The notes under the pieces: generated by a model | What the model saw: the letters and a program-made list of their open reading frames with translations, nothing else | Told to the model about the DNA's origin: nothing | Database searches by the model: none | Shown: positions 1 to 6,083 of the stretch, in pieces | How the letters are laid out: each line of letters begins with the position of its first letter | Numbering within the stretch: the stretch's first letter is position 1 | Position numbers and translations under genes: made by a program | From: JAFGIT01 sp016929465 [NCBI: Candidatus Coatesbacteria bacterium] | Lineage (GTDB): Bacteria; B130-G9 | DNA: 6,153 nucleotides | NCBI GenBank assembly: GCA_016929465.1 | Contig: JAFGIT010000075.1 | Location: forward strand, 1 to 6,153 | Direction: 5' to 3'

Positions 1-854
1 AACTCCGAGGTGCAGCGCTGGTCCGTGCCCACGAACAACGTCGATGGCGTGTAGCAGAATATCAACGCACCGTGCTCATTCTGGCCGAAATAGAAATTTG
101 AGCTCTTCCCGTCTGGACCAGGCCTGAGATCAACGACGAGCGGTTCCAGGAACTGCTCCATAGGCGCCGAAATGCCCGCCTCGTGGCTGTCCGGCTGAAC
201 CGGTATCGTAAGGCCAATCGATTCGCCGAGCTCTCTCGCATGGGCGCCCGCTGCATTCACGACGATCGGTGCGGAGTAGGTGCCCTTGTCGGTCTTTACT
301 CCCGAAACCTTTTGTTTATCGATAGTTATGGCCTGAGCCTTATCACCGAACTTGAAGTCGCAGCCAAATGACTTGGCGATCCTGTGCATCTCATAAGCGG
401 CCTTTAGAGTGCAGACCTGGCCGTCCTCCGGCGAGAGCGTCCCACCAAGCAAGCCCTCCTCGTTGATACCAGGGATTACCTCCTTTATCGTCTCGGGGCC
501 GACCCAGTCTATGTTGAGCCCAAACTCCTTCTGAATGGGCAGGATGCTCTTCAGGACCATCTCCTCGTTCGGCCTGAATACGGGGAAGCAATAGCCGCCC
601 ATCTTCCAGCCGACGCTGCCGCCGTGGTTCTCTTCCCAGGTGGAGAATATCTTTAGGCTTTCGAGGCAGAGCCTGATCTTTGCTGGATTGGAGTGGGTGG
701 CCCTGACGCCGCCAATCGCGGTCTTATTCTGCCCCTGTCCGCAAGAGGCACTGCTGTCGATTACAAGGACCTTCAGCTTCTCCTTTGCAAGGAACATCGC
801 TGTCGGAAGGCCGACGCTTCCTCCCCCGACAACTATCGCGTCGTAAGTGTTCAC
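1..854 (-). CDS. Sarcosine-oxidase-beta-like FAD-dependent dehydrogenase (DAO family), C-terminus cut by window edge
   Basis: Reading leftward from a GTG at 854-852, the frame stays open for 284 codons to the window edge, so the protein is 3'-truncated here; family members are usually about 380-420 residues. Residues 5-15 form the FAD Rossmann motif (IVVGGGSVGL, Gly10/12/15), followed by the ribose-binding acidic residue Asp33. NAAGAHA at 200-206 is the second flavin-contact motif typical of D-amino acid/sarcosine oxidase flavoproteins. SPEDGQV at 141-147 and the stretch around 252-284 (NFYFGQNE, then VGTDQR) fit the SoxB/HcnC/OoxB type. These beta subunits oxidise a C-N bond of an amino or N-methylamino acid and pass electrons to an alpha partner, which here would be the gene immediately upstream. 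The start is set by a strong Shine-Dalgarno sequence six bases upstream and by a 4-nt GTGA overlap with the preceding gene. Arginine codons are almost all AGG/AGA. The substrate is not determined; glycine-, proline-, opine- and sarcosine-type substrates all remain possible. Confidence 0.88.
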   Translation of the reverse strand, partial: MNTYDAIVVGGGSVGLPTAMFLAKEKLKVLVIDSSASCGQGQNKTAIGGVRATHSNPAKIRLCLESLKIFSTWEENHGGSVGWKMGGYCFPVFRPNEEMVLKSILPIQKEFGLNIDWVGPETIKEVIPGINEEGLLGGTLSPEDGQVCTLKAAYEMHRIAKSFGCDFKFGDKAQAITIDKQKVSGVKTDKGTYSAPIVVNAAGAHARELGESIGLTIPVQPDSHEAGISAPMEQFLEPLVVDLRPGPDGKSSNFYFGQNEHGALIFCYTPSTLFVGTDQRCTSE

Positions 855-2926
855 TCCGAGCCCTCCTTGACGCAGGCGAGCGCCGATAGCGGGACCTCGG
901 CCACAAACGGGCGCTCGGTCGGCGGTGTGACCTCATTCAGCGGCACGCCTTCCTCTCGGAATATCCGTTGGATAAGTTCGGTGCAGGTCTTGCCGCCGCA
1001 GGCGCCCATCCCAGTCCTGAGCGAGGCCTTGAGCTGGTTCATATCCCGCACACCGCGCCTTATCTCCTGCACGATCTCCCGCCTCGTGATCCGCTCGCAG
1101 CGGCAAACTATGACGTCGCCATCGTCGAATCCCTCGCCGGTCTCATTCCACTGCTCGAAATCCCTCTGGAGCTTGAATCCGGCCACCTCGAGCCGTTGCT
1201 CGTAAGGAACCTCGAGCATCAGCAGGTCTCTCTTGTCGAGGATCGGTGATTTCTTCACGGCGATGATCTTGCCCTCTCCGACGGGCTGCCCATCGAGATT
1301 GGTCGTCGTCACTATCTTCCGTTTGAGCAGGTCCTTGCGGTCGGTCTCAGAAGGCATGATGACGAGGGCGAATTTCTTGTCTGGATCGTAGTCCTCGGTG
1401 ACGAGCGTGATCGCAAGCCCCGGGCATATCGAGACGCACCTTCCACAGCCCGTGCATCGGCCATCGAAGACGGGAAGGTCCGTAATCGAATTCCCGCTGA
1501 GTTTGATCGAGCGCATGGGACACACCTGCGTGCAGGGATTGCACGGTATCTCCTCGAAGCAGCGAATGACGGGATAGACCTTCAGGTCCTTCGGCTCGGC
1601 TTTGTGCACCGTGGTCGCACCTGGCTTGCTGCGAAGCGTCTTCATCAGCGGCTCCCAGGTTGCGGGAACGAAGCTGGATTTGCCGAGCATCTTCGCTATC
1701 TTGCGGCCCGAAAGGCGGCCCGAGAACATCGCGGCGCTCGCTTCGGCAATCTCCTGGGCGTCTCCAGCCGAGAGAACAGGCACGCCCGCCTCCTCGGCCA
1801 TGTTGTATAGCTCGTCGAGCGGCGACAGGCCGACCGCGACGAGGATCGTATCGACCTCGAAGCTCCTCGTGGTGCCCTCGACGACTTTGAATGATTTGTC
1901 CACTTGCGCGATTTCGATGCCCCTGACATCAGTCTCGCCGAATGCCCTGACGACGGTATGCGAAGTGTAAACCGGCACTCCGAGCCTGAGTATCTTGTCC
2001 AGGTGGACCTTGTAGCCACCGCATTTCGGCAGCGCCTCGACCAGCCCGACCACTTCGATGCCCGCCTGAATAGCATGATACGCGGCGATCAGGCCGACAT
2101 TTCCGCCACCGACTATGAAGAGCCGATCCGTCGGGCGCACCAGGTCCCTGTTGACCAGCGTCTGAAAGGCTCCAGCGCCATAGACGCCAGGAAGATCGCA
2201 GCCCGGGAAGGAGAGGTTTTTCTCTCGGGCACCCGTCGAGATGAGTATGATTCTCGGGTGAACCAAGACATATCTCTGCCCCTGCTGGATGCCGACTCTC
2301 TTGTCGGAGAAAACGCCGACAGCGGTCGATCCGGTCCAGGTCTCGACGCAGTCGTATCTATTGACCTCATTTGCGAGGATATGTCCGATCTCATTGCCCC
2401 GCGTGCCCGCGAAGCAGTCGTCGATGGAGCCGAAGAAGGCGTGTGTCTGAAGGCTCAGCTTCCCGCCGAGCTCCTCCTTATCATCTACTAAAAGCGTCTC
2501 TATGCCGAGTCTGCCCAATTCGATAGCGGCACAAAGCCCCGATGGGCCGCCGCCGATTATCAGCACTTCCGTCTCGAAGGTCTTGATCTCTTCGAAGCCA
2601 ACCGGCCTATCTTCGGGAGGAAGCGCTGGATCCCCGACGCAACTCCCGACGACCATCCCTTCCCTGGCAAGTGTCATGCACGCCTTCACCGCGACACCAT
2701 CAGCGATGACCATGCACTGCGAGCACTGCCCGTTCGCGCAGAATATGCCCATCGGCGCGCCATCTCTGGGATGACGCCCGAATACCTTGATGCCCGCAGC
2801 GAAGAGTGCAGATGAGATGACTTCGCCTCTCTTCGCAATGATCGGCTTGCCGTCGAACGTGAACTCTAATTCCTCTCTCTCGGGAATGTCGAGAACGGGA
2901 TGCGTCCTTACCCTGAAGTCCGTCAT
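851..2926 (-). CDS. Fused [2Fe-2S]/FAD/2x[4Fe-4S]/BFD oxidoreductase, HcnAB/SoxA-like alpha subunit
   Basis: This 691-residue cytoplasmic electron-transfer flavoprotein shows no signal peptide or membrane segment. Domains in order: residues ~18-90, a plant-type [2Fe-2S] domain with Cys63, Cys68, Cys71 and Cys83 (HcnA, or the SoxA N-terminus); ~119-415, a two-dinucleotide-fold flavoprotein (HcnB-like) with VLIIGGGPSGL at 121-131, a second GGGNVG site at 273-278 and an AGDA flavin motif at 387-390; 456-501, two ferredoxin-like [4Fe-4S] motifs (Cys462/465/469 plus probably Cys456, and Cys491/494/497/501); ~515-600, an unassigned, probably beta-rich domain; 608-648, a BFD-type [2Fe-2S] domain with CRC at 608-610 and CGGKTC at 643-648. 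The tail (PPTERPFVAEVPLSAL) resembles the end of HcnB/OoxA/SoxA proteins. The folate-binding GcvT domain of true heterotetrameric sarcosine oxidase is absent. By family analogy it receives electrons from the SoxB-like beta subunit. The ATG start overlaps the upstream stop by one base (TGATG), with GAAGG four bases upstream. Confidence 0.9.
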   Translation of the reverse strand: MTDFRVRTHPVLDIPEREELEFTFDGKPIIAKRGEVISSALFAAGIKVFGRHPRDGAPMGIFCANGQCSQCMVIADGVAVKACMTLAREGMVVGSCVGDPALPPEDRPVGFEEIKTFETEVLIIGGGPSGLCAAIELGRLGIETLLVDDKEELGGKLSLQTHAFFGSIDDCFAGTRGNEIGHILANEVNRYDCVETWTGSTAVGVFSDKRVGIQQGQRYVLVHPRIILISTGAREKNLSFPGCDLPGVYGAGAFQTLVNRDLVRPTDRLFIVGGGNVGLIAAYHAIQAGIEVVGLVEALPKCGGYKVHLDKILRLGVPVYTSHTVVRAFGETDVRGIEIAQVDKSFKVVEGTTRSFEVDTILVAVGLSPLDELYNMAEEAGVPVLSAGDAQEIAEASAAMFSGRLSGRKIAKMLGKSSFVPATWEPLMKTLRSKPGATTVHKAEPKDLKVYPVIRCFEEIPCNPCTQVCPMRSIKLSGNSITDLPVFDGRCTGCGRCVSICPGLAITLVTEDYDPDKKFALVIMPSETDRKDLLKRKIVTTTNLDGQPVGEGKIIAVKKSPILDKRDLLMLEVPYEQRLEVAGFKLQRDFEQWNETGEGFDDGDVIVCRCERITRREIVQEIRRGVRDMNQLKASLRTGMGACGGKTCTELIQRIFREEGVPLNEVTPPTERPFVAEVPLSALACVKEGSE
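861..868 (-). promoter_or_regulatory. Shine-Dalgarno sequence of the SoxB-like gene
   Basis: The minus strand reads AAGGAGGG, then six bases, then GTG. It lies inside the last codons of the upstream 691-residue gene. This near-perfect anti-16S match supports the non-ATG start at 854 and indicates translational coupling through the GTGA stop/start overlap. Confidence 0.8.
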
Positions 2927-3789
2927 CAGACCTTCTTTCCAAGGTTCTTAGCGATAAAAAGGATCAGGTCCTGCACATCGATTGCGCTCTTAACCCAGGT
3001 GCCAGGCCGTGTCGCGAATTTGAGCGAAATCAGGCACTTCGGGCAGAGCGTGAGAATCCGCTCGCAGCCCGCGCCATCTGCCGCCTCGATGAGCCGATCA
3101 ATTCTCGATCTGGCGGCAGCATCCCTGGGCAGCCATTCCGTGCCGCAGCAATCCATTGGCTCTTCGACCAGTCTATTGATATCGACGTAATCAGAGACGA
3201 GGTCGCTCAGCCTGGAGACATTGTGCTCTCTGCCTCCGTCCACGGCATCGTGGCCAGTGCAGGTCAATATCCCCGTCTTGGGCGGCAAAGCGAACTTCGG
3301 CATCTTGCCGGCGAGAAAATCGACCAGATGCAGCACTTCGCAGCCATGGTCGAAGCCGAGCTCGGAATATTTCTTGAGCATCATAACCCCGGCGGAGCAG
3401 GTCGCGACTATCGTCCTGGCACCAACCGCTTCGAAGAGGCCGATGTTCTTCTCGGCAAGGCCATTGACCGTATCGACATCCATCCCAATAAATGCGTCCA
3501 GACCGCAGCAGACTTCATCCGCCAGCACAACCGGCTTCACGCCGACCGAATTGAGCAGCCGGACGGATGCCCTGGGTATTTCTATAATGCTGTGTTCTAC
3601 CTGTCTGCCGAAGATAAGGTCGGCGAAGGGAACGCAGCCAACGAAATATACGACCGGTCCCATTTCAGAGACCTTCAGCTCTCCATCAAGCCAGGAGAGC
3701 CGATTCTGTTTCTTCTCCCCCCTGGCCTGCATACGGGCGATTGCCGTCAACATGTCGCGGTTCTTTTTACCACTATCAGGCGCAGTCAT
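2926..3789 (-). CDS. HdrB-like (Fe-S)-binding protein with two CCG domains
   Basis: This 287-residue soluble protein has the two-repeat cysteine-rich (CCG) architecture of heterodisulfide reductase subunit B and relatives such as GlpC, LutA and SdhE-type proteins. Repeat 1 has Cys52 (FVGC), Cys94-Cys95-Gly and Cys131. Repeat 2 has Cys177, Cys214-Cys215-Gly and CPKC at 249-252. In HdrB each repeat binds a non-cubane [4Fe-4S] cluster through C...CC...CxxC. Here repeat 2 is complete, but repeat 1 ends in CSAG, so its last ligand is Gly134. About 45 residues precede repeat 1, including WLDGELKVSEMG, a lead-in I associate with HdrB-like proteins of anaerobes. There is no HdrC-like or HdrA-like neighbour, so it is probably not a classical CoM-CoB heterodisulfide reductase; electron transfer within the operon's complex, or reduction of a thiol/disulfide or quinone, is more likely (inference). 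The ATG lies 5 nt after the upstream stop, with GGAG ten bases upstream inside the end of the previous gene. Its stop overlaps the next start by one base. Confidence 0.87.
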   Translation of the reverse strand: MTAPDSGKKNRDMLTAIARMQARGEKKQNRLSWLDGELKVSEMGPVVYFVGCVPFADLIFGRQVEHSIIEIPRASVRLLNSVGVKPVVLADEVCCGLDAFIGMDVDTVNGLAEKNIGLFEAVGARTIVATCSAGVMMLKKYSELGFDHGCEVLHLVDFLAGKMPKFALPPKTGILTCTGHDAVDGGREHNVSRLSDLVSDYVDINRLVEEPMDCCGTEWLPRDAAARSRIDRLIEAADGAGCERILTLCPKCLISLKFATRPGTWVKSAIDVQDLILFIAKNLGKKV

Positions 3790-3794
3790 TTATT

Positions 3795-6083
3795 TTAATC
3801 TCCATTCGAATGCGGAGTATTGTCGAAAGTCATTAGTTTTATTTTATCGGATGTTACCCCGAGTATATAGAGTATCGCATTAAGTTTCGCCACGGTCTCC
3901 TCGACATCGTGGCAGGAATCGTAGCGACAGTCGTCCTCTCCGCAGCTGTAGATCAGGACCTCTCTTGCGCCGTTCTCTAACGCACCGATAATCGACCATG
4001 CGGGAATACGTCCGGTGCAAAGGAGATCGATAAATACGGCTTCATCGCCTAATCGGTTTGCGAGTGCATCGCTCGCATCAGGATGATTCGCCTTCGCCCA
4101 GATGCACCTGAACACGACCGTCTTGTCCTTCACATCGAGAATCGATTGCGCGAGGCGCTCATTCGAGAAGTGCATCTGGTCCAGTGCACCGGTCGGACAG
4201 CGGGCGATGCAAGCGCCACAACCTTTGCATACGGCGGTATCTATGACCTGGACCACTCGGCCATCCTTCACAAAGGTCGTCTTAGCAGCCGCGTAGGAGC
4301 AGGCATCCTCACAGGTAGAGCAGCCTATGCAAAGGCTCTCATCACAGAGGGCTATGATTGGTGCGAGTATGCCTGAAAGAGCGCTTTCGTCGGCGTCTCC
4401 CACCTTTACGGAACATCGAGCCATTTCTCGCTTCTCCCCGAGGAGGTCCTCGAGCTGGGCGTGCTGGACCTTCACCAGTTCCGCGTCGCACCACGAGGCC
4501 TCCCGCTGTTCGCTTTCGAGGGCGATGTATCGACCATCACACTCGTTTATGCACCGCTCGCACTCGAGACACGAGCCGCACATGAGGCATCTCGAAGCCT
4601 CTTCCCTGGCCTGCTCGAGCGTGTATGCCATCTCCACCTCGTCGAAGCTTCTGACGTCGAGGTTGTCAGCCAACGGTGGCTTGATCCTCTTGCGCTCATC
4701 GGTCGGTGAGAAGATGAGCTCATATTTCACTGGCGTCTGATATTTCCTTGGTTCAAGTATCGAGGCCTTGCCCGTTTCGATGAACGCTGCAATGGCCTCA
4801 GCCGCACGATGGGCCATGCCTATCGCCTCGACAGCGGTTGCCGCTCCCGAGACTATGTCGCCCGCAGCGAATATACGGGGGATGCTCGTGGCGCAGGTGC
4901 GCTCATCAGCGCCGATGGTATCCCACCGCGTCACTTCGAGCCCATCGATGCCCTCGACGAGGCCCAGGTCTGGACGCTGCCCGAGCGCCGCGACCACGGA
5001 ATCGCAATCAACCGTGAACTCGCTGCCATCTATAGGAACAGGCCTGCGCCTGCCGCTCGAATCCGGCTCTCCGAGACGCATCTTCTTCAGCTCGATTGAA
5101 CTGACCCCGCCATCAGTGCCGAGAATCCGTTCGGGTGCAACCAGGTAGTCGATAAGAATGCCCTCTCTAAGGGCCTCCTCTATCTCGTAATCCCTGGCAG
5201 GCATCTCGGCCCTGGAGCGTCTGTAAGCTATCTTGACCTCGCTTGCGCCAAGCCTGAGGGCGGTCCTTGCAGAATCGATAGCGGAATCGCCACCACCGAT
5301 CACGATTACCCTCTTCCCGAGAGTGCGGTTGCCGTCGAGATGAACCGACGCTAGGAATGATATCGCATCGAGCACGCCTTCGAGGTCTTCGCCTTCAACG
5401 CCGAGGGACATACCTTTGTGCGCGCCGGCCGCAATCAGAACGGCCGAAAAGCCTTGCTCGAGGAGCTCATTCAGGCCGAGGTCACGACCTATGCTGATAC
5501 CCGTCTTTATCTCGATGCCCATTTGGAGCACATGCTCGATTTCGAGGCTCAGAATCTCGCGCGGAAGGCGGAAAGGAGGAATGCCGGCGAGCAACATGCC
5601 GCCCGGCTCATTGAACCGGTCGAATATCGTGGTACCGAATCCCTTCATAAGAAGGTCCTGCGCGGCAGTCAGACCAGCCGGTCCTGCTCCTATGATCGCG
5701 ACTCTCTCGGGTCTTGTGGGCGATATCCGCTCGATTATCCTGCCGCCACGGCGAAGCTCGTAGTCCGCGATGAATCGCTTCAGAGAACATATCGAGATAG
5801 GGTCGTCGAATTCGCCGCGCGCGCATTCCGTCTCGCAGGGGTGACTGCAGATGCGGCCCATGACTCCGGGGATTGGGAGTCTCTCTCGAACCACCCGGAG
5901 AGCCTCATCGAACCGGCCCTCGGCGGTAAGCGCTATGTATGCCTTTGCATTGACTCCCGCCGGACAGGCGGCGTTACAGGGGGGCCTCTCAGAGGTTACC
6001 AGCTTATAGGATAGCCGGCCTCCCGAAGGGGCTATCTCAAAGTTGGCAGAACCAATCTGCCGATTTTTACTATCTCGACTCAA
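3795..6083 (-). CDS. GltD/NfnL-like NAD(P)-FAD oxidoreductase fused to ferredoxin and MvhD-like domains
   Basis: This 762-residue fusion is the first gene of the operon. Residues ~20-110 form the GltD-type N-terminal Fe-S domain (CNAAC at 36-40; Cys79, Cys83 and Cys87 in CSHPCETEC). Residues ~127-440 form the FAD/NAD(P) module: IIGAGPAGL (Gly132/134/137) for FAD, GGGDSA at 263-268 and YRRS at 287-290 for the nicotinamide nucleotide, and AAGDI at 406-410. Residues 498-515 hold a six-cysteine cluster motif that begins RCLMCGSC. Residues 585-629 are a 2[4Fe-4S] ferredoxin domain (Cys585/588/591/595 and Cys619/622/625/629). Residues ~655-760 resemble MvhD, the delta subunit that links [NiFe] hydrogenase to HdrA, with Cys660, CTGR at 689-692, and Cys714, Cys719 and Cys724; the second Cys of its usual CxWC is missing. 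The protein likely exchanges electrons between NAD(P)(H) and Fe-S partners, perhaps by bifurcation at the NfnL-like FAD. Start: an in-frame TAA lies 18 bases upstream and the first internal Met is residue 75, inside the conserved domain, so TTG is the best choice. It has no Shine-Dalgarno sequence. Confidence 0.9.
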   Translation of the reverse strand: MSRDSKNRQIGSANFEIAPSGGRLSYKLVTSERPPCNAACPAGVNAKAYIALTAEGRFDEALRVVRERLPIPGVMGRICSHPCETECARGEFDDPISICSLKRFIADYELRRGGRIIERISPTRPERVAIIGAGPAGLTAAQDLLMKGFGTTIFDRFNEPGGMLLAGIPPFRLPREILSLEIEHVLQMGIEIKTGISIGRDLGLNELLEQGFSAVLIAAGAHKGMSLGVEGEDLEGVLDAISFLASVHLDGNRTLGKRVIVIGGGDSAIDSARTALRLGASEVKIAYRRSRAEMPARDYEIEEALREGILIDYLVAPERILGTDGGVSSIELKKMRLGEPDSSGRRRPVPIDGSEFTVDCDSVVAALGQRPDLGLVEGIDGLEVTRWDTIGADERTCATSIPRIFAAGDIVSGAATAVEAIGMAHRAAEAIAAFIETGKASILEPRKYQTPVKYELIFSPTDERKRIKPPLADNLDVRSFDEVEMAYTLEQAREEASRCLMCGSCLECERCINECDGRYIALESEQREASWCDAELVKVQHAQLEDLLGEKREMARCSVKVGDADESALSGILAPIIALCDESLCIGCSTCEDACSYAAAKTTFVKDGRVVQVIDTAVCKGCGACIARCPTGALDQMHFSNERLAQSILDVKDKTVVFRCIWAKANHPDASDALANRLGDEAVFIDLLCTGRIPAWSIIGALENGAREVLIYSCGEDDCRYDSCHDVEETVAKLNAILYILGVTSDKIKLMTFDNTPHSNGD

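Follow-up and report, generated by a model that had tools for sequence, protein, structure and literature searches.

A four-gene operon from Candidatus Coatesbacteria encoding a PDH1-like dehydrogenase pair together with GltD-, ferredoxin-, MvhD- and HdrB-like modules

The window analysed here, that is the whole stretch of 6,153 nucleotides at positions 1 to 6,153 of contig JAFGIT010000075.1, is an entire contig (G000:C196) of the draft genome (G000, 86% complete) of Candidatus Coatesbacteria bacterium JAFGIT01 sp016929465, and it carries an operon of four genes, referred to as A, B, C and D. Open reading frame calls over the whole window placed all four on the minus strand, with junctions of +5 nt (A/B), -1 nt (B/C) and -4 nt (C/D). 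Pfam searches indicated that A contains Fer4_20, Pyr_redox_2, 4Fe-4S and FlpD/MvhD domains, B a single CCG domain, C the Fer2_4, Pyr_redox_2, 4Fe-4S and Fer2_BFD domains, and D a DAO domain. These analyses confirmed the four-gene composition and the junctions given in a preliminary description made from this DNA alone. Gene D is cut by the contig end, 284 codons lying in the window versus about 387 in relatives. The genes are as follows.

3795..6083, minus strand: gene A, GltD-type flavoprotein with an extra iron-sulfur (Fe-S) stretch, a ferredoxin dicluster and MvhD (762 amino acids, TTG start)
2926..3789, minus strand: gene B, HdrB/CCG-type protein (287 amino acids)
851..2926, minus strand: gene C, alpha subunit with Fer2_4, flavin adenine dinucleotide (FAD)/dinucleotide, two [4Fe-4S] and BFD [2Fe-2S] parts (691 amino acids)
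1..854, minus strand: gene D, DAO-fold catalytic beta subunit, PDH1-beta-like (first 284 codons)

The searches gave three other members of the window's family, the genomes G001, G002 and G003, the family drafts being 83-95% complete; L-numbers denote loci fetched from G-numbered genomes (L002 is the locus of G002 and L037 that of G376).

The likeness of D to PDH1 was measured on the D proteins of G001, L055 and G002, which are relatives of the cut D of the window. The closest sequence match in the PDB of the G001 protein was 1y56_B, the beta subunit of Pyrococcus horikoshii PDH1 (E 4e-47), and the best solved relative by sequence of the L055 protein was the beta subunit of the P. horikoshii L-proline dehydrogenase (E 2e-55). 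The model of the G002 protein, with a mean predicted local distance difference test score (pLDDT) of 85.6, matched 1y56_B in Foldseek with E 8e-36 and a template-modelling (TM) score of 0.89. Sarcosine oxidase, dimethylglycine dehydrogenase and glycine oxidase ranked behind PDH1-beta in both fold and sequence. An Arg-X-Trp motif, which the available text of PMC4575208 links to flavin mononucleotide (FMN) in the PDH1-type family, was found in 31 of 33 D rows, the two misses being the cut D of the window and L007, which has a frame break nearby; eight more distant D rows were excluded from the motif counts. The proposal that an amine or amino-acid dehydrogenase forms the core of the operon is supported by PDH1-like sequence and fold.

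The NCBIfam models soxA, soxB and ThiO were among the best matches, all below cut-off. At the position of the Lys of the SoxB GFK segment (Lys in 3ada_B), a residue which we take to bind substrate, all 30 D rows with a letter there carry Met, as does PDH1-beta. Pfam gave no match at E 0.001 in the 691 residues of C to the GCV_T-like folate domain, a C-terminal feature of SoxA, and membership of SoxAB was rejected on this result together with the Met for Lys in D. Off the operon, G001:C12:232-336 encodes a stretch of 35 residues that shares 74% identity with residues 256-290 of D, either a fragment or a stray copy.

Subunit C carries the following features.

2645..2875, minus strand: Fer2_4 [2Fe-2S] domain, C63, C68, C71 and C83 (Pfam, alignment)
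1763..2569, minus strand: Pyr_redox_2 FAD/dinucleotide domain, residues 120-388 (Pfam)
1424..1561, minus strand: two [4Fe-4S] motifs, C456/462/465/469 and C491/494/497/501 (alignment)
953..1111, minus strand: BFD-like [2Fe-2S] domain, C608, C610, C643 and C648 (Pfam, alignment)

The 16 cluster cysteines of C were Cys in every row having a letter there (32 or 33 of 33), and those of the Fer2 region are absent from SoxA. Matches of C to HdrA models were weak and fell on the first Rossmann stretch and the ferredoxin end of HdrA. The C-D pair is like PDH1 (PDB 1y56) and the related opine and D-hydroxyproline dehydrogenases, as given in the available text of PMC4575208, in being an alpha-beta pair, and like PDH1 in the fold and sequence of D, the Arg-X-Trp motif and the presence of FAD in alpha and beta. 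It differs from PDH1 in that C is a single chain to which Fer2, two [4Fe-4S] and BFD parts are added, and in the extra proteins A and B. At L037 (G376):1045-2700, C is represented by a short Fer2 frame overlapping a 551-residue frame, through a frameshift or a true split.

Four features were recognised in protein A.

4776..5990, minus strand: GltD/NfnB/StnC-type FAD and NAD(P)H domain, residues 32-436, with Lys102, Arg172 and GGGDSA
4539..4589, minus strand: six-Cys stretch, C499-C515, the first two Cys matching the N-terminal RCLxC of NfnB
4164..4367, minus strand: 2x[4Fe-4S] ferredoxin domain, residues 573-640, like the C-terminus of HdrA (Pfam, conserved Cys)
3825..4118, minus strand: MvhD/FlpD domain, residues 656-753, with Cys 660, 689, 714 and 719 (Pfam)

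The GltD part of A matched NfnB (5jca_L) with E 2e-93. Alignment placed Lys102 at the position of StnC K170, with Lys likewise in G001, G002 and G107 and the G388 sequence cut before the site, and Arg172 at the position of NfnB R201, which is Arg in G000, G001, G002 and StnC, Glu in G388 and Leu in G107. According to the available text of PMC10482914, the FAD-proximal cluster is bound by Glu in NfnB and by Lys170 in StnC, and the GltD FAD of StnC is non-bifurcating; the Glu ligand of NfnB is not present in A, which has Lys102. The NfnL-type label first given to A thus stands for the GltD-type domain but not for the cluster ligand, which is of the StnC type. The six-Cys stretch may be a permuted RCLxC, a permutation that also appears in the StnC alignment. 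The FlpD domain scored well above the Pfam cut-off (46.6 bits versus 22.3), its four cysteines are all kept in G001, G002 and G388 and three of them in G167, and the resemblance of A to HdrA2 is limited to the ferredoxin-MvhD end.

Among known systems, A is like StnC of the StnABC transhydrogenase (PDB 8oh5; available text of PMC10482914) in its GltD-type domain, the FAD-proximal-cluster Lys and the further Fe-S domains, while unlike StnABC the window contains no NuoF-type bifurcating module and MvhD stands in place of the NuoG part. The joining of GltD or MvhD to ferredoxin domains is shared with the HdrA of methane-metabolising archaea, where type III has GltD inserted and type Ia has MvhD fused, in the available text of PMC12054007, from which the meaning of the nucleotide motif is also taken; A differs from these in having no HdrA flavin core, in its amino-acid dehydrogenase partner and in the motif itself, which is GxGxxA (GGGDSA) and not GxGxxG.

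Protein B has a CCG-type fold by Pfam and by its AlphaFold model, but not the two complete CCG cluster motifs of HdrB. The first motif (C52, C94, C95, C131) is without the final Cys, and the second (C177, C214, C215, C249, C252) is complete in the window and broken in G001, G002 and G003. All four first-motif cysteines occur in G000, G001 and G002, that region being absent from the G003 sequence; C52 and the CC pair are lost in G376 and G388, and C131 is the sole motif Cys kept in all seven aligned rows. No sequence match to B was found among solved structures. The model (mean pLDDT 84, from a seven-row alignment) matched LutA 9a6l_A, itself an integrative model, with E 9e-8 and HdrB 5odc_B with E 5e-6, both at a TM score of about 0.6; LutA or HdrB took the first seven places among the 17 matches at E 0.001 or lower, and racemases with TM scores of 0.30-0.34 made up the remaining 10.

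Since relatives in which the unit is retained have lost cluster ligands of B, disulfide reduction is unlikely as a conserved role, and an active HdrB was rejected as the conserved function. The conservation pattern suggests that B is more likely a hub or relay than a conserved disulfide reductase. In having MvhD and an HdrB-like subunit beside a dehydrogenase the operon is like HdrABC-MvhD complexes, for example that with MetVF (available text of PMC5736913), and it is unlike them in that neither an HdrA core nor HdrC was recognised in the window and the HdrB ligands are degenerate. The preliminary description is to be corrected in that D is truncated and only the second CCG motif of B has complete ligands. 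The estimate of about ten Fe-S sites was fair, as conserved cysteines assign up to six in A, four in C and one or two in B.

Genes A, B, C and D occur in this order on one contig of G002 (L002, JAGHCW010000007.1, metagenome-assembled genome of bacterium isolate AUK292). One contig of G001 ends inside B after C-D and another starts inside B beside A, one contig of G003 starts late in B and continues into C-D and another ends early in A, and these two genomes agree in their outer flanks. The conserved neighbourhood asked for at the outset is thus seen directly in the window and G002, and the order in G001 and G003 is consistent with it across contig gaps. Identity among family members was 72-90% for C, 75-87% for D, 56-84% for A and 45-50% for B. 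The ratios of nonsynonymous to synonymous substitution rates (dN/dS) for G001/G003, the only pair with dS <1, were 0.10 for C, 0.12 for D and 0.20 for A (over 213 codons); the remaining pairs had dS >1 or were saturated, with ratios of 0.07-0.31 where computable and B highest. Purifying selection is clearest in the G001/G003 pair.

A match to C at E 1e-60 was present in 59 of 386 genomes, and near-full-length C was present in 31 genomes, the window's own included, among the matches listed; the match in G009, whose phylum comprises four genomes, two of them with C, contains one stop. Forty loci were fetched from the C matches and two from same-genus genomes. D adjoins C in 33 of the 34 tree rows besides the window, the contig of L075 ending first. 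Outside the family the module occurs in several forms: GltD-ferredoxin, MvhD, HdrB-like protein and C follow in that order in G388, and ferredoxin, MvhD, HdrB-like protein, C and D in G376, while in G167 and G390 a 658-residue Fer2-ferredoxin-MvhD protein with a B-like C-terminal part overlaps C, and in G107 a GltD-ferredoxin gene lies 13 nt upstream of C. G376/G388 and G167/G390 fall in two separate phyla, each related to the window only at the level of the same domain. Junctions in L033 and the window range between +5 and -8 nt. A contig scan with B returned 24 pattern matches and one relative, and none of the 60 plasmid records matched by tblastn reached 60% identity, the top one (Parabacteroides) having 29% over 96% of C.

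The phylogenetic tree of C was constructed from 33 C proteins and two outgroup rows. Ten short, split or distant rows (L060, L061, L063, L065-L068, L070-L072) were left out, as was L043, in which C was lost to a longer opposite frame, and L064 gave no C frame. The nine module-bearing rows of the 33 formed one clade with support of 99/96, and the module label required one change on the tree versus 8.0 in shuffles, with none of 500 shuffles as low. Since these nine rows form a single clade, the simplest reading is one joining event: the module probably joined a widespread C-D pair once, and fusions, fissions and losses would have followed. The order of events within the clade is less sure, its internal forks having support of 93/91 and 88/68. 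The order kept, the existence of fused and unfused versions and the single clade in the C tree support the suggestion that the genes form one functional unit, and the four-gene arrangement is more than chance.

Our preferred interpretation, to which we give roughly even chances, is that the operon encodes a composite soluble imino/amino-acid:NADP(H) oxidoreductase with L-proline as the likeliest substrate; in it we infer complex formation, the substrate, the direction of flow, the cofactor of the GltD domain and the role of B. D would oxidise the C-N bond of an imino or amino acid at its FAD, most likely converting L-proline to 1-pyrroline-5-carboxylate, and the electrons would cross an FMN expected at the C/D interface into the two [2Fe-2S] and two [4Fe-4S] clusters of C. 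From this chain they would pass to the ferredoxin clusters of A and be exchanged with NADP(H) at its GltD-type FAD, and MvhD of A together with B may provide a third port or a docking hub for a further partner. Proline oxidation is only mildly reducing, and net NADP+ reduction would therefore need strong product removal or a second input, which makes the MvhD/B port the central question for this reading.

Proline is our best guess because 1-pyrroline-5-carboxylate dehydrogenase (P5CDH) is present in the family genomes, no PutA-type proline dehydrogenase was found there, and neither was any full-size protein of D's type other than D itself. G000-G003 and G376 each have a P5CDH that scores above the TIGR01237 threshold. 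The PutA-type domain PF01619 was not found in G000-G003, G376 or G388; it was present in 4 of 35 genomes and in 8 of 14 control genomes. At E 1e-10, each of G000-G003 gave D as its single full-size match of this type. A P5CDH gene lies 3 nt downstream of a more distant C-D pair in G326.

Several observations weigh against this interpretation, some concerning the substrate and others the coupling of A-B to C-D. P5CDH and the operon lie on different contigs in the family genomes, P5CDH could serve ornithine breakdown instead, and, as these genomes are drafts, the failure to find PF01619 does not prove its absence. Of 10 other genomes searched, 5, among them G376 and G388, have a further, distant D-type protein with 26-28% identity. 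A P5CDH match at E 1e-80 was found in 19 of the 35 C-bearing genomes and a close one (at least 53% identity) in 12, including G326; as P5CDH is present in only part of these genomes, proline is perhaps not the substrate everywhere. Two C-D pairs that lack A and B are preceded, one by glyA, encoding serine hydroxymethyltransferase by Pfam (L055:5237-6532, gap of 26 nt), and the other, by eye, by a similar contig-cut frame (L058:11033-11875, gap of 34 nt), hinting at a different substrate in these two loci. A substrate other than proline, whether sarcosine, dimethylglycine, glycine or a different amino acid, is somewhat unlikely in our estimate. The soxA, soxB and ThiO matches, the two serine hydroxymethyltransferase genes and a GcvT-like frame near C-D in L049, confirmed as GcvT at that place (G382:C141), speak for it. 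The Met of D at the SoxB Lys position and the best fold match of D, PDH1, speak against it, as does GcvT, which was found in 33 of 35 genomes and not in G000 or G080.

As to the coupling, 24 of the 33 C rows have no detected module, and C-D therefore can probably work without A-B. Modules were sought at E 1e-8 with queries taken from the window, which could miss distant modules; 20 of the 24 rows have at least 2.4 kb upstream and the other four (L042, L007, L057, L058) less than 0.9 kb. The B-like part of the G167/G390 fusion shows 18-19% alignment identity and no Pfam CCG match, and B of G376 lies only just over the CCG cut-off. We regard it as unlikely that C-D is a complete enzyme and A-B a separate NADPH-dependent reductase merely co-transcribed with it. 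The module-free rows and the low conservation of B within the family relative to C would fit such a division; the association is, however, confined to one clade and has lasted across fusions and fissions in several phyla, and the junctions are tight in the window and L033.

The preliminary description raised bifurcation or confurcation as a possibility and pointed to NfnL-type proteins, which bifurcate at FAD. The modules of A are indeed those of bifurcating enzymes, with a GltD part resembling NfnB and an end resembling the ferredoxin-MvhD end of HdrA2, Arg172 aligns with NfnB R201, C weakly matches HdrA models, and the thermodynamics of proline to NADP+ would favour coupling. NfnL-flavin bifurcation was rejected as the default reading, A having Lys102, StnC-like, where NfnB has Glu; the Arg at the R201 position is not constant, the GltD flavin of StnC is reported as non-bifurcating in the available text of PMC10482914, and the ligands of B are lost in relatives. 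Neither the HdrA flavin core and HdrC nor NuoF/HydB and Etf flavin sites were recognised in the window, the rest of the genome not having been searched for them. From sequence, bifurcation by this unit is possible but unsupported, and we consider it quite improbable that the operon encodes a true flavin-based bifurcating or confurcating complex with two acceptors (NAD(P)+ and ferredoxin, or a disulfide) and NfnL/Hdr-type splitting.

Similarly doubtful is a route in which electrons leave mainly via B to quinone or thiol, as in LutA or GlpC, with GltD as a side port. LutA is the best fold match of B, followed by HdrB, and CCG subunits join dehydrogenases to quinone in GlpC-like systems, but the ligands of B are not conserved in relatives beyond C131 and no membrane anchor is encoded in the window. 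An undescribed class of energy coupling, in which electrons from proline and from a low-potential carrier arriving through MvhD would be confurcated to NADPH, the flavin that splits them being placed in C or at the FMN between C and D and HdrB serving as hub, is very unlikely on our estimate.

The surroundings of the operon vary. An alanine-dehydrogenase/PNT-like gene lies downstream of D in G002 (L002:9035-10174), and by eye a citrate synthase-like gene and an aconitase-like pair follow D in G001 and G003, up to the contig end in G003, the run in G001 also including an isocitrate dehydrogenase-like gene. As D is followed by different genes in G002 versus G001/G003, neither neighbour is conserved, and an opine route based on the alanine-dehydrogenase-like gene was rejected. 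Near the G002 operon, a glutamate-synthase-like protein with no NCBIfam match lies on the minus strand (L002:11254-14307) beside two Fe-S proteins, NuoG/HydA- and NuoF-like by eye, and the group is possibly another NAD(P) electron unit. Similar proteins of 416-417 residues, with no function assigned, are encoded convergent to D at L055:9808-11061 and L058:6517-7767.

Taken as a whole, the earlier interpretation is partly supported. No description of the four-gene unit was found in the literature searched, among the matches listed, and the unit is a new combination of already known parts. To our knowledge, it is unsettled which electron acceptor PDH1-type amino-acid dehydrogenases use physiologically. 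Here candidate acceptor modules (GltD, ferredoxin, MvhD and the HdrB-like protein) are attached to such a dehydrogenase, in fused and unfused form and in several phyla, and the attached modules make the acceptor question directly testable. The operon also indicates that Hdr/Mvh parts are retained in use where the cluster ligands of HdrB have decayed.

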